Positions 25,052-29,086 of a stretch of DNA of 64,000 nucleotides are shown in pieces. A model generated the notes under the pieces. That model ran no database searches. It had not been told where the DNA came from and saw only the letters and a list, made by a program, of their open reading frames with translations. Made by a program: the position numbers and the translations under genes. Source of the stretch: Cyclobacterium xiamenense (GTDB lineage: Bacteria; Bacteroidota; Bacteroidia; Cytophagales; Cyclobacteriaceae); contig NZ_WIOK01000003.1 of assembly GCF_009467825.1 (NCBI RefSeq), positions 62,001 to 126,000 on the forward strand, in the 5' to 3' direction. How positions within the stretch are numbered: position 1 is the first letter of the stretch; each line of letters begins with the position of its first letter.

Positions 25052-26590
25052 TCAGTCAAACCCATGGTACAGGTAAATGGCCCCATAGGTCCATTGCGGG
25101 CCCTGAATGCCCGGATAATTGTACCGATCCATCATCAAAGCGAGGTACCGAAAGGGATACCCCTCGGGTAATTCGACCACATTGGGCCATACCCGGGTAC
25201 CCGATTCCGCATCCCAGGGAGGGAGGTCCATTTGCAAGTTTCCCCGTTCCCGAAGGTCCGGGTAGCTGTAAATGAAAATTTTTCGTTCGCTGCTCCCGAA
25301 GAAGGCGTAGCGGTGATCCCCAATTTTTTGAAGCGAGGTACCCGTGGAGTTTACCGATACCGGACCGGCAAGGGGAACAAATCCCCGATTCCACTCCTCC
25401 GACTCCAACAGGATGGCCTTGTATCCGTTTTGATTGATGCAGGTCAGCATGCGCCATTTGTTCGCCGCTGCATCAAAAATCAGGTGCGGATCTTCGATAT
25501 CTCCCACCATACCGAAAGGCCTTGCCTTCATGACCGAAAAGCCAAACCGGGGATCCTTTTTGCTGGATATGGTAAGCAGTTGCTTCGCTTCGTCCTCGTC
25601 GGCATAAGCACTAAACCCCGTGGTAAGGCCTTTCCAGATTTCCTCCCTTCGGTCGTAAAACAAATGGGAGGCTACCTCGTTTCGCAGCAGGCCATCGTTG
25701 CGGTCAAAAACGATCACTCCCTCCAATCGGATATCGAAAACCGTGGGGTCCAGGCTAAATACTCCCTGGAGGGGATGGGGCAATCCCCGTCCACGGATGG
25801 TGAGGGTGTACCACAACCTTCCCCGATCCAGCAAGGGGCTTCCATCTTCGTAGGTAATGGCCCGAATATCCGCCAGACCCATGCCGGCTCCAAGGTAGGC
25901 ATCGACCCGATCGATGTGCACGGCACCCTGCGAAATCTCCAGGAACACCTGCGATTGAAAACGATTGATTCTATCTCGCTGCCGTAAATCCAGGTACTGG
26001 CTGAATTCTCCCTGCCCAATAGCCAAAGGCAAGCCCACATCCTGAAGGTACACCGTCAATCCGCTGCCCAAAAGTTGTAAGATCAGTCGTTTCCCTGCCA
26101 GGGAGTCTATGGAAGCAGTTTGAATGGACGCAGATAGTACCCGTACAGAATCTTGGTATACCTCCATCCGTAAATCCTGGAACAGGCCTTCGCTGTATTC
26201 CAGCCCCACACGCATGCCATCTGATCCCGCACCAAACGTAAATCCCAGCGCGCCACTCCCCCTGAGGTCTCCCAGGTCCAGGGAATAGGTGGCAAACGGG
26301 TTGAATCCGCCAAACCAGACTTCGGTGTGGGAAGCACCTTCGGAACGGACAATCAGCTGTTCATTTTCGACGAGCAAAGCAGCTTTTTCGTCCCGGTGGT
26401 GCCTAACCGGATGCATGGCGGGCAATCCAATGATGGATTGGGGGTCCAGGGAGGCCAAAGGAATGCGCTGCTCCGGATCGAAAACAAACCGCTTCACGCC
26501 TTGTCTTACAAACTGGATGGCATCCGGTGAGGGCTGCGCCTGAATGGAGGTAATGACGAAAATCAATGCCGGAAAAAAACAGTACTTCAT
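25052..26590 (-). CDS. exported beta-propeller protein, possible glycoside hydrolase (GH43/GH32-like)
   Basis: 512 residues from ATG 26590 (MKYCFFPALIF..., signal peptide to about residue 18, SIQAQ). The N-terminal half looks like a concanavalin-like beta-sandwich (LRGSGALGFTFGAGSDGMRV). The C-terminal half has short repeated strands such as IEDPHLIFDAAANKWRM, TGTSLQKIGDHRYAFFG and a C-terminal YGAIYLYHG. This pattern is typical of five-bladed propeller glycosidases and phosphorylases. I cannot name the family or catalytic acids. The alternative start at 26632 is GTG and lacks the signal. Confidence 0.7.
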   Translation of the reverse strand: MKYCFFPALIFVITSIQAQPSPDAIQFVRQGVKRFVFDPEQRIPLASLDPQSIIGLPAMHPVRHHRDEKAALLVENEQLIVRSEGASHTEVWFGGFNPFATYSLDLGDLRGSGALGFTFGAGSDGMRVGLEYSEGLFQDLRMEVYQDSVRVLSASIQTASIDSLAGKRLILQLLGSGLTVYLQDVGLPLAIGQGEFSQYLDLRQRDRINRFQSQVFLEISQGAVHIDRVDAYLGAGMGLADIRAITYEDGSPLLDRGRLWYTLTIRGRGLPHPLQGVFSLDPTVFDIRLEGVIVFDRNDGLLRNEVASHLFYDRREEIWKGLTTGFSAYADEDEAKQLLTISSKKDPRFGFSVMKARPFGMVGDIEDPHLIFDAAANKWRMLTCINQNGYKAILLESEEWNRGFVPLAGPVSVNSTGTSLQKIGDHRYAFFGSSERKIFIYSYPDLRERGNLQMDLPPWDAESGTRVWPNVVELPEGYPFRYLALMMDRYNYPGIQGPQWTYGAIYLYHGFD

Positions 26591-26941
26591 GGGTCTATCG
26601 TTTGTCTTCAAAGGTCGCCGCCTAGCTGACACCGATCGTCATCCCAGACTGGGAAGCGCTCCTTGGACCAGTCTGACTCAGGCCGCCTGGTTTGCAACCC
26701 GGTCAGCTAAGGCTCCCGAATATACGGATACTTCCGGTTCGCTTGCTAGTGAAAAAACCTCTTTTTTACCGTTCACAATTCGATTCGCAAACGAAACTCC
26801 TTCGGAGAGAAGTCGTTTTCATCCCAAGGCAGGTCAGAAGTAGCCTATCCCTTATCCAATCCAGTATATTCTATATTTCCATGTTAAAAAAATCCCTGGA
26901 GGCGAATTGGCCACCTGTCTTTATACCACTGAAAAACACCC
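26591..26941. other. divergent intergenic region with a three-stem inverted-repeat structure
   Basis: Between two divergent exported-protein genes. An outer stem TAGCTGAC/GTCAGCTA (26623-26630, 26702-26709) encloses a 7-bp stem AGACTGG/CCAGTCT (26646-26652, 26668-26674) and a small CAGG/CCTG hairpin (26679-26689). TATATTTC near 26870 could be a -7 box for the rightward gene. No coding sequence recognised. Confidence 0.45.
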
Positions 26942-29086
26942 ATGAAAGCACGCACCACGAGTTGGATCATTGCCCTGTTTTGCCTGGCGTTATCGTTCCC
27001 ATCTGCAGGTCAGGTAATGTCATCCATTTCGCAACAGATTCGAAAAACGATCGCCTTGCCTCCAAACGCAGGAATGGAGGTACTCCGGCTTTTTGCAAAA
27101 GGAGATTCCATTCGGGTCGTTACCTCCCACGGCCTGTTTACATATTATCAGGACAGCTGGTCGGGAGCGCCTTTTATTACCGGGCTACAAGTTGCAACCA
27201 TGGACGCCTCCCGACAAATCTGGCTCTCCAATGGTCGCTCCCTATGGGCAGAAGATGGAAAACGCATCCCCAATCCAGCCTTGCTGCCGGGTGAGTCGAT
27301 CCGCAGCCTTGCCTGGGCGACATCCCAAACACTCCTTGTAGGCACCAACCGGGGCCTGCACATTTGGCAGGATGCCTGGACCCGGGTCCCGTTTCCAGAG
27401 GAAATGGCCGTAAATTCCCTGGCCGTGGACGCAGAGGGAAATTGGTGGCTGGCTGCAGACCGGGGTCTTTGGCGGCGGCAGAAGGGTCGCTGGACAAACT
27501 TTGACCAAGACGTAATGGCTCCAGGCCACGAGAGCAATTACCTGACACTGGAACCCGCGGACGAGGGAAAAACCCTCTATTTTAGTTCCGCAAATGCCAT
27601 AGGCGCCCTGGCTGCGGAGGGAAATCATTGGATGGCACGGGGATCGGACGGTTTGCCCTACGGGCCGGTTACGCGCATGGCTATCAAAGATGGAACGATC
27701 TGGATGGCCACGGAAAAAGGACTGATCAAAAAAGACAGCAGCTGGCACTACTACGCCGGCAAGCGCTGGCTTCCGGACGACCGGGTACTCGACCTGTTGC
27801 CCCTGGGGAACGATAGGGTTTGGGTGGCCACATCCGAAGGAATCGTGGAATTGGCCAGTATCCCCATGTCTATGGAGGAGAAAGCCGACTCGCTGGAGCG
27901 GGTGGCAGAAGCACGGCACAACCGGCTGGGACTCATCAACCGCTCCAAACTCGCACTACCCGGCGAGCTGGGCAGTAGTTTTTTAGAAAACCAGGACAAC
28001 GACGGGCTTTGGACCTCCTGCTACCTGATCGCGCAATGCTACCGGTACGCCGTCACCCGGGACGAAACTGCCCGGGTGCGCGCGGTACGCACATTTGAAG
28101 CATTGGAACGGCTGGAAACCGTTACTGGTATCTCCGGTTATCCCGCACGGTCGTACGCCAGAGCAACGGACATGGTCGCTCCCTCCCGCTCTCCCCATCC
28201 CAAAAATTGGCACGATTCGGCCGATGGGGTATGGCAATGGCTGGACGATACCAGCTCAGACGAAATCGTCGGGCACCTCTTTTCCCTAAGCCTCTTTCAC
28301 GAATACCTGGCCGACGCCTCGCAGCAAAAACGGATTGTGGATCTAATCGATCGAATCGTCAGCCACATTTTGGACAACGAGTTTCAACTTATCGATGCTG
28401 ACGGACTACCTACCCGCTGGGGAATCTGGAACCCCGACTCACTCAATCGCTCCACTAACTGGATGTACGAACGTGGCCTGAATTCTTTGCAGATCCTTTC
28501 GCATTTGAAAACGGCCTACCATTTTACGGGCAAGGAAAAATTCGAGAAAGCCTACCGATACCTGGTAGAAGAAGAGGGATATGCCAAAAATGCGGTGAAG
28601 GCAAAAATGACTGACCCCTTTGAAATCAGCCATTCGGACGATATCCTGAATTTTTTCCCCTATTACAACCTGCTTCGGTACACCGGGGAAGATGATCCGT
28701 CCCGGAAGCTGTACGTGAAAAGTCTGCGGCGTTCCTGGGAGGCGGTACGCAACGACCGCATGCCGGTGTGGAACCTCCTGGCAAGCAGCCTGCTGGGGGA
28801 GGAACTGGATTTGGATTTGGCGCAGGCGGCATTGGAAGAATTCCCCCTCGACCAGATCAATTGGTCCTTTACCAATAGCCACCGTTGGGATTTAAAAAGG
28901 GATGAATTTCCGGGTCGTGGTAGGGCCGAACAAGCGTTGGTAGCGCTTCCTGCCGGGGAGAGTAATGTTTTCCGTTGGAATACCAATCCCAAGCAACTGG
29001 ATGGCGGTGGGGCCGGATTGAGCGAAGAAAATGGCAGCTACTACCTGGTGGCCTATTGGATGGGTCGGTTTCACGGGTACTGGTAA
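26942..29086 (+). CDS. exported propeller plus (alpha/alpha)-barrel protein
   Basis: 714 residues with a signal peptide (LSFPSAGQ, about 23). Residues about 40-310 carry repeats of the two-component-regulator propeller type: LLVGTNRGLHIW, WWLAADRGLWRR, IWMATEKGLIKK and VWVATSEGIVEL. From about residue 340 the protein is helical, with GDGLWTSCYLIAQCYRYA-like hairpins and ADGLPTRWGIWNPDS, resembling six-hairpin glycosidase/lyase barrels. There is no transmembrane or kinase part. The architecture suggests a surface or periplasmic enzyme acting on a sugar polymer, but the function is unknown. Confidence 0.75.
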   Translation: MKARTTSWIIALFCLALSFPSAGQVMSSISQQIRKTIALPPNAGMEVLRLFAKGDSIRVVTSHGLFTYYQDSWSGAPFITGLQVATMDASRQIWLSNGRSLWAEDGKRIPNPALLPGESIRSLAWATSQTLLVGTNRGLHIWQDAWTRVPFPEEMAVNSLAVDAEGNWWLAADRGLWRRQKGRWTNFDQDVMAPGHESNYLTLEPADEGKTLYFSSANAIGALAAEGNHWMARGSDGLPYGPVTRMAIKDGTIWMATEKGLIKKDSSWHYYAGKRWLPDDRVLDLLPLGNDRVWVATSEGIVELASIPMSMEEKADSLERVAEARHNRLGLINRSKLALPGELGSSFLENQDNDGLWTSCYLIAQCYRYAVTRDETARVRAVRTFEALERLETVTGISGYPARSYARATDMVAPSRSPHPKNWHDSADGVWQWLDDTSSDEIVGHLFSLSLFHEYLADASQQKRIVDLIDRIVSHILDNEFQLIDADGLPTRWGIWNPDSLNRSTNWMYERGLNSLQILSHLKTAYHFTGKEKFEKAYRYLVEEEGYAKNAVKAKMTDPFEISHSDDILNFFPYYNLLRYTGEDDPSRKLYVKSLRRSWEAVRNDRMPVWNLLASSLLGEELDLDLAQAALEEFPLDQINWSFTNSHRWDLKRDEFPGRGRAEQALVALPAGESNVFRWNTNPKQLDGGGAGLSEENGSYYLVAYWMGRFHGYW

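Follow-up and report, generated by a model that had tools for sequence, protein, structure and literature searches.

Predicted fusion of a sensor-type propeller to an (alpha/alpha) barrel in a widespread, apparently unnamed protein family of Bacteroidota and Bacillota

Beta-propellers of the Reg_prop type are best known from sugar sensors, although PorZ of the type IX secretion system is a kinase-less protein that carries propellers of this type. Among enzymes built on an (alpha/alpha) barrel, GH127 has an active site of zinc-bound cysteines, while the AGE enzymes (N-acylglucosamine and cellobiose 2-epimerases) employ two catalytic histidines. Within the window, by which we mean the whole 64,000-nucleotide stretch of DNA analysed here, an open reading frame at 26942..29086 (+ strand, as for all features of this gene below) encodes a 714-residue protein in which a sensor-type propeller is followed by a predicted (alpha/alpha) barrel, and which belongs to subfamily I of the propeller-barrel family described here. 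An earlier note on this DNA had described a signal-peptide protein that joins a regulator-type propeller, of the kind normally found as a hybrid two-component sensor, to a helical six-hairpin-like domain with no kinase, and had suggested that the barrel might be an uncharacterised enzyme for which the propeller binds carbohydrate or presents substrate.

The reading frame is real rather than a product of chance, because full-length orthologues with 73-74% identity occur in two congeners and relatives with 53-56% identity over the best segment occur in seven other Bacteroidota records (Larkinella, Persicitalea, Terrimonas, two Chitinophagaceae MAGs, a Haliscomenobacteraceae MAG and a Sphingobacteriales MAG). 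A promoter and terminator scan returned nothing informative. Residues 1-24 (26942..27013) form a hydrophobic segment that is a probable Sec signal peptide with a cleavage site placed by eye; residues 2-17 are a helix in an AF2 model of the whole protein (12 sequences; mean pLDDT 73.2, pTM 0.68), and a hydropathy scan found a 12-residue stretch with mean hydropathy of at least 1.8 within the first 45 residues of 14 of the 15 subfamily I proteins. In the same scan, no 19-residue stretch past the N-terminus of these proteins had a mean hydropathy above 1.53. The signal-peptide-like start noticed earlier thus holds up, and the protein is probably secreted.

The propeller occupies residues 29-309 (27026..27868). 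Reg_prop (PF07494) is the sole Pfam match of the protein (E 1.6e-9, 37.2 bits against a gathering cut-off of 20.4); at a threshold of E<=1 it also matches 25 out of 36 members of the family. The strands of the AF2 model can be counted as seven blades, with strand 29-37 closing the last one, and comparison of the whole model by VIA gave the BT4673 sensor at Z 26.2 (268 residues, 3.3 A) and virginiamycin B lyase at Z 25.1. A fold search with the whole model likewise returned essentially propellers only, including Bacteroides hybrid two-component sensors and virginiamycin B lyase, and a PDB sequence search gave strong E-values for propeller proteins only, rows that touch the barrel having E >=0.1. 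Two NCBIfam models match the protein, both far under cut-off and both within the propeller; 'F510_1955 family glycosylhydrolase' (E 1.1e-4, 21.6 bits against 175) covers residues 197-263 and was rejected as evidence on the barrel. No histidine kinase or response-regulator domain was matched by Pfam or NCBIfam after the propeller, and the C-terminal half is barrel. The propeller and the missing kinase of the earlier note are therefore both borne out, and its comparison with hybrid sensors is right as to propeller type; the implied oddity of a kinase-less example is weaker, since such proteins, PorZ among them, were already known.

From residue 311 on, the AF2 model is helical. Because the whole-model search had returned essentially propellers only, the barrel (residues 311-714, 27872..29083) was folded alone, which gave a model of mediocre quality (pLDDT 63.6, pTM 0.74). 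Two chains matched it in Foldseek at E<=0.001, both of them sugar 2-epimerases (7d5g, E 5e-4; 3vw5, E 8.3e-4), and structures of the GH88/GH105 type and of PL2 (1vd5, 4q88, 6ojk) also appear in the list. In VIA the top match was YPO2471 (Z 17.8, 287 residues, 3.7 A), followed by GH76 at 16.9, a sugar epimerase at 16.6 and the exo-glucosidase/glucosaminidase VC0615 at 16.4, and the 50 rows, mostly (alpha/alpha) barrels, span Z 14.6-17.8. We assign the fold class only and no family, because mostly helical models with no clear match typically reach a best Z of 14 in VIA by helix arrangement alone and terpene cyclases score 14.8 among these very rows. Read in this way, the model supports the six-hairpin-like (alpha/alpha) fold class proposed before and singles out no one family within it.

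Profile comparison with a 68-row barrel alignment as the query points in the same direction. The barrel profile matched GH127 with Prob 87.5, AGE with 66.1, GH9 with 19.7, GH88 with 2.7, GH8 with 1.6 and GH76 with 0.25, the GH76 profile having been made from four sequences only, whereas six unrelated families gave Prob 0.09-0.27. Known (alpha/alpha) families compared among themselves by the same method ranged from Prob 0.3 to 94.6, so that the similarity of the barrel to the six-hairpin/(alpha/alpha) barrel superfamily reaches the level of known members. These sequence profiles support a placement near the six-hairpin glycosidases and epimerases. Searches of the own genome at E<=1 with the GH127 model (PF07944) and the AGE model (PF07221) found six and four places, respectively, and the window gene is among neither set. 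The barrel has no name in Pfam, NCBIfam or the PDB sequences, the one exception among 36 family members being a weak match to the GH127 Pfam model (E 0.0033). Judged by titles and the opening parts of abstracts, no paper found in a literature search that covered few subscription journals describes the propeller-barrel fusion or the subfamily II operon discussed below; CAZy may hold the family.

The same fusion, for which the earlier note had suggested looking elsewhere, recurs in dozens of proteins. The fetched loci contain 67 reading frames with the barrel, many of them from one genus, and 62 cover both domains; of the other five, three are Clostridia proteins, one is cut by a contig end and one is broken. 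Among 59 kin genomes, own included, 38 match at E<=0.001, many through sensor propellers alone, and the match extends into the barrel in 20 when counted by aligned range. A screen of 296 genomes of the phylum found 11 with a match at E<=1e-20, six of which (own included) reach the barrel, a count that may be too low because scoring was limited to three candidates in each genome. The class to which one of the Clostridia genomes belongs was represented by 196 genomes, and 3 of them match at E<=1e-10. The three Clostridia genomes also carry a second copy, of full length, which by eye starts like a cytoplasmic protein. Pattern searches of viral contigs gave 60 matches and no relative. The window protein thus belongs to a widespread propeller-barrel family of two phyla, Bacteroidota and Bacillota, rather than being a singular fusion.

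A tree of 68 barrels, built by a quick method and with long branches flagged by the program, divides the Bacteroidota proteins into four subfamilies: I (the window protein and 15 rows, support 99), II (32 rows, support 100), III (10 rows, support 100) and IV (6 rows, support 98). The barrels of G235 and the Clostridia fall outside these four. The own genome holds one copy per subfamily, four in all (window, L031, L032 and L033), and the highest number of barrel-bearing copies in any genome is six (G029). The orthologue in one congener (L040:9690-11844, G007:C57) is broken, its barrel being open and its propeller interrupted by stops; other congeners have intact copies. A Bacillota homologue (L215:553-2796, G405) has large insertions within the barrel and matches the profile only from position 247.

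The earlier note had also proposed a search for conserved acidic pairs in the barrel, and five aspartates, D352, D354, D440, D566 and D650, proved invariant in all 66 rows counted, which exclude the broken L040 copy, the cut L026 copy and the later-found second Bacillota copies. Equally invariant (66/66) are W254, G260, T297, K314, R328, R403, S438, W493, W496, Y547, R648, Y705 and W706, while E441 is present in 64/66 and E673 in 63/66; the commonest histidine columns, H326 (63/66) and H445 (59/66), fall short of invariance. Along the barrel, these residues lie in the motifs DNDG (residues 352-355, 27995..28006; D352 and D354), TSSDE (437-441, 28250..28264; S438, D440 and the nearly invariant E441), DADGLPTRWGIW (485-496, 28394..28429; W493 and W496), HSDD (564-567, 28631..28642; D566) and SHRWDL (646-651, 28877..28894; R648 and D650), and in YWMGR of the closing helix (705-709, 29054..29068; Y705 and W706). 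By eye, the second Bacillota copies retain the aspartate motifs, and W496 is lost in the distant Bacillota copy of G405 (L215). Conserved loops 333-353, 497-510, 558-567 and 640-697 have pLDDT below 50 in the whole AF2 model; among the invariant aspartates, D352, D566 and D650 sit in such loops. An identification of DNDG with the GH9 base motif was considered and dropped, the GH9 profile match being weak (Prob 19.7).

Conservation does not stop at the domain border. W254, G260 and T297 fall within propeller repeats 6-7 (residues 237-310, 27650..27871), whose conservation resembles that of the barrel and which are retained where blades 1-5 are absent. Across the 15 rows of subfamily I, blades 1-5 have a mean identity of 41%, repeats 6-7 one of 56% and the barrel one of 68%; between subfamilies, in five of six pairs, the corresponding ranges are 11-16%, 25-36% and 32-37%. 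The three Clostridia proteins of about 600 residues align to the profile only from position 230 and have no blades 1-5, and the G235 protein is likewise shorter ahead of its barrel. Because of this identity pattern and of the short Clostridia and G235 proteins, we read repeats 6-7 plus the barrel as the likely conserved unit and the remaining blades as its changeable part, whose divergence fits what might be expected of a specificity module. Conservation of repeats 6-7 could have another cause, such as closure of the propeller ring.

The subfamilies differ in their gene setting, with subfamily II in amino-sugar operons and the window's subfamily I outside such a setting. In the genus, where 12 genomes contribute one subfamily II locus each, genes for a ROK protein, YdjC, BNR_2 and MurQ are each present in 12/12, an MFS gene and a second BNR_2 gene in 11 each and a phosphatase gene in 9, with gene order kept; most markers for this count were supplied by L031, and the genus loci share ancestry and so amount to few independent events. 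In the own genome, L031:233-11732 (G000:C8) reads MFS, ROK kinase, alkaline phosphatase, BNR_2, YdjC, BNR_2, the propeller-barrel paralogue and MurQ, which is possibly an amino-sugar or MurNAc catabolic unit. Its MurQ clears the cut-off of one N-acetylmuramic acid 6-phosphate etherase subfamily model (326.6 bits, cut-off 168) and stays under that of the equivalog model (272.4 bits, cut-off 302). Other subfamily II loci contain GH20, SusC/SusD, an HGSNAT/NagX-like protein or a polysaccharide deacetylase, the last two being matched below the cut-offs of their NCBIfam models.

Outside the genus, at least one marker is present at 9/13 subfamily II loci and at 1/13 control loci, and SusC or SusD at 6/13 and 4/13, respectively; the markers were taken from loci under comparison (L031, L041, L042 and others), a choice that biases the count towards those loci, and the controls (L077-L089) were hand-picked at round positions in the same genomes and are not random. 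With the donor loci L041 and L042 removed, BNR_2 or YdjC occurs at 6/11 loci against 0/13 controls (Fisher p 0.003) and against 0/16 loci of subfamily I (p 0.0016), while two or more marker kinds occur at 4/11 against 1/13 controls, a difference that is not significant (p 0.11). Some of the compared loci are shorter than 20 kb, owing to contig ends or to a smaller stretch having been taken, the L026 subfamily II copy is uncounted, and L075 and the Clostridia loci belong to no context group. The most that subfamily I loci offer is an HGSNAT/NagX-like gene in 2/16 and a sulfatase in 3/16, the latter not above the 1/13 of the controls (p 0.38).

Ten neighbours of the window gene were scanned and include an esterase, a thioredoxin-like protein, a putative prolyl-oligopeptidase-type hydrolase and an enolase-superfamily (MR/MLE) enzyme; no clear catabolic locus emerged among the ten. 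The genes upstream are partly shared, with the two congeners only. Divergent from the propeller-barrel gene lies a gene for a 526-residue protein (window 25052-26632, - strand) that has no Pfam or PDB sequence match, and in its place directly upstream of the congener orthologues stands a gene for a 736-residue protein (L034:11493-13703 and L035:12030-14240, both - strand), the L034 copy of which has no Pfam match. Bacillota copies are near alpha-amylase, glycosyltransferase and GFO/IDH/MocA oxidoreductase genes, as well as a glycogen phosphorylase read from sequence. At all three Clostridia loci, a one-base overlap links the stop of the short barrel gene to a gene for a 280-residue protein (L028:5208-6050, L029:7605-8447 and L030:9659-10501); neither Pfam nor NCBIfam matches the L030 copy of this protein.

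Taking these observations together, we favour, with moderate confidence, an enzyme that is secreted to the periplasm and active on carbohydrates, most likely as a glycoside hydrolase of the inverting type that would use its propeller as a selector. The enzyme reading proposed in the earlier note draws its support, indirectly, from the invariant acidic residues and from the catabolic neighbours of the sister subfamily II. In such an enzyme, substrate would enter the funnel of the (alpha/alpha) barrel, where two acids among D352, D354, D440, E441, D566 and D650 would act as general base and general acid and W493, W496, R403 and R648 would hold the sugar. Propeller repeats 6-7 may pack on the barrel as part of the catalytic module, leaving blades 1-5 as a fast-evolving face that could select or position the glycan. 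Against this reading count the window gene's lack of a clear catabolic locus, the non-significant excess of two or more marker kinds outside the genus, the mediocre barrel model with D352, D566 and D650 in low-confidence loops, and the absence of W496 from the G405 copy. A shared fold leaves the reaction itself unfixed, given that epimerases and lyases have the same one. A sugar epimerase or isomerase akin to the N-acylglucosamine 2-epimerases, with free sugars or oligosaccharides as its substrates, would account for the two top Foldseek matches, for VIA scores of Z 16-17 and the profile Prob of 66, and would suit the amino-sugar setting of subfamily II. We nevertheless consider it unlikely: the AGE Pfam model misses the window gene in its own genome, neither H326 nor H445, common as both are, forms an invariant column to set beside the two catalytic histidines of AGE, and GH76 and GH9 structures score equally, within 1 Z unit.

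It is a little less probable again that the barrel is a polysaccharide lyase or an unsaturated-uronyl hydrolase of uronic-acid-containing glycans. The GH88/GH105-type and PL2 structures among the Foldseek matches would suit this, as would the sulfatases at 3/16 subfamily I loci and the enolase-superfamily gene near the window gene, a superfamily that includes sugar-acid dehydratases; yet the profile match to GH88 (PF07470 members) reaches a Prob of only 2.7, the sulfatases are no commoner than in the controls, and the Pfam-scanned neighbours include no GH88, GH105 or polysaccharide-lyase family. Improbable, too, and to our mind the most so, is a non-catalytic protein that binds or senses carbohydrate and retains an enzyme fold. 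A propeller of the hybrid-sensor type, and a window gene with no recognisable catabolic operon around it, are what such a protein would lead one to expect, but five aspartates and several aromatic and basic residues of the barrel are invariant, the aspartate motifs by eye also in the second Bacillota copies, and within subfamily I the barrel is better conserved than blades 1-5 (68% against 41%).

A more specific and distinctly speculative picture can be drawn, which we think has a low but appreciable chance of being correct. The family would be an undescribed glycosidase family with two propeller repeats integral to its catalytic module; subfamily II would join two sialidase-like BNR_2 proteins, YdjC, a ROK kinase and MurQ in an unrecognised Bacteroidota route that dismantles N-acetylmuramic-acid-containing glycans (peptidoglycan) or similar amino-sugar glycans, and the window protein, as a sister enzyme, would act on another glycan, possibly a sulfated one. 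As a testable guess at the substrate, the subfamily II operon suggests amino sugars that carry a lactyl ether; the conserved repeats 6-7 pose the structural question, likewise testable, of whether an enzyme can incorporate part of a propeller. The apparently nameless but widespread family is visible in Pfam and NCBIfam only through its propeller, under the label 'two component regulator propeller', so that its members are easily mis-annotated as sensors; should its members be enzymes, a two-phylum family with up to six barrel copies per genome has gone unnamed in both databases.

Set beside described (alpha/alpha) barrel enzymes, the family lies closest in profile to the GH127/GH146 beta-L-arabinofuranosidases, which share the barrel and whose 'shElY..GH' segment aligns with the TSSDE...GH segment, whereas the zinc-binding cysteines of GH127 have no counterpart in a family in which no cysteine column exceeds 14/66. 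The AGE enzymes give the best Foldseek matches, but no histidine is invariant across the propeller-barrel family, though several are common, and PF07221 is silent on the window gene at E<=1; GH76 (BT2949) and GH9 (VC0615) reach Z 16-17 against the barrel but much lower Prob values in profile comparison (0.25, from four GH76 sequences only, and 19.7). On the propeller side, the PorZ NCBIfam model matches weakly (E 0.075, 11.4 bits against 260) and at residues 143-262 only, outside the barrel. Like the Bacteroides hybrid two-component sensors BT4673, BT4663 and BT3049, the window protein has Reg_prop repeats and a seven-bladed fold; where it departs from them is in consisting of one predicted seven-bladed propeller that leads, with no kinase found, directly into a barrel.
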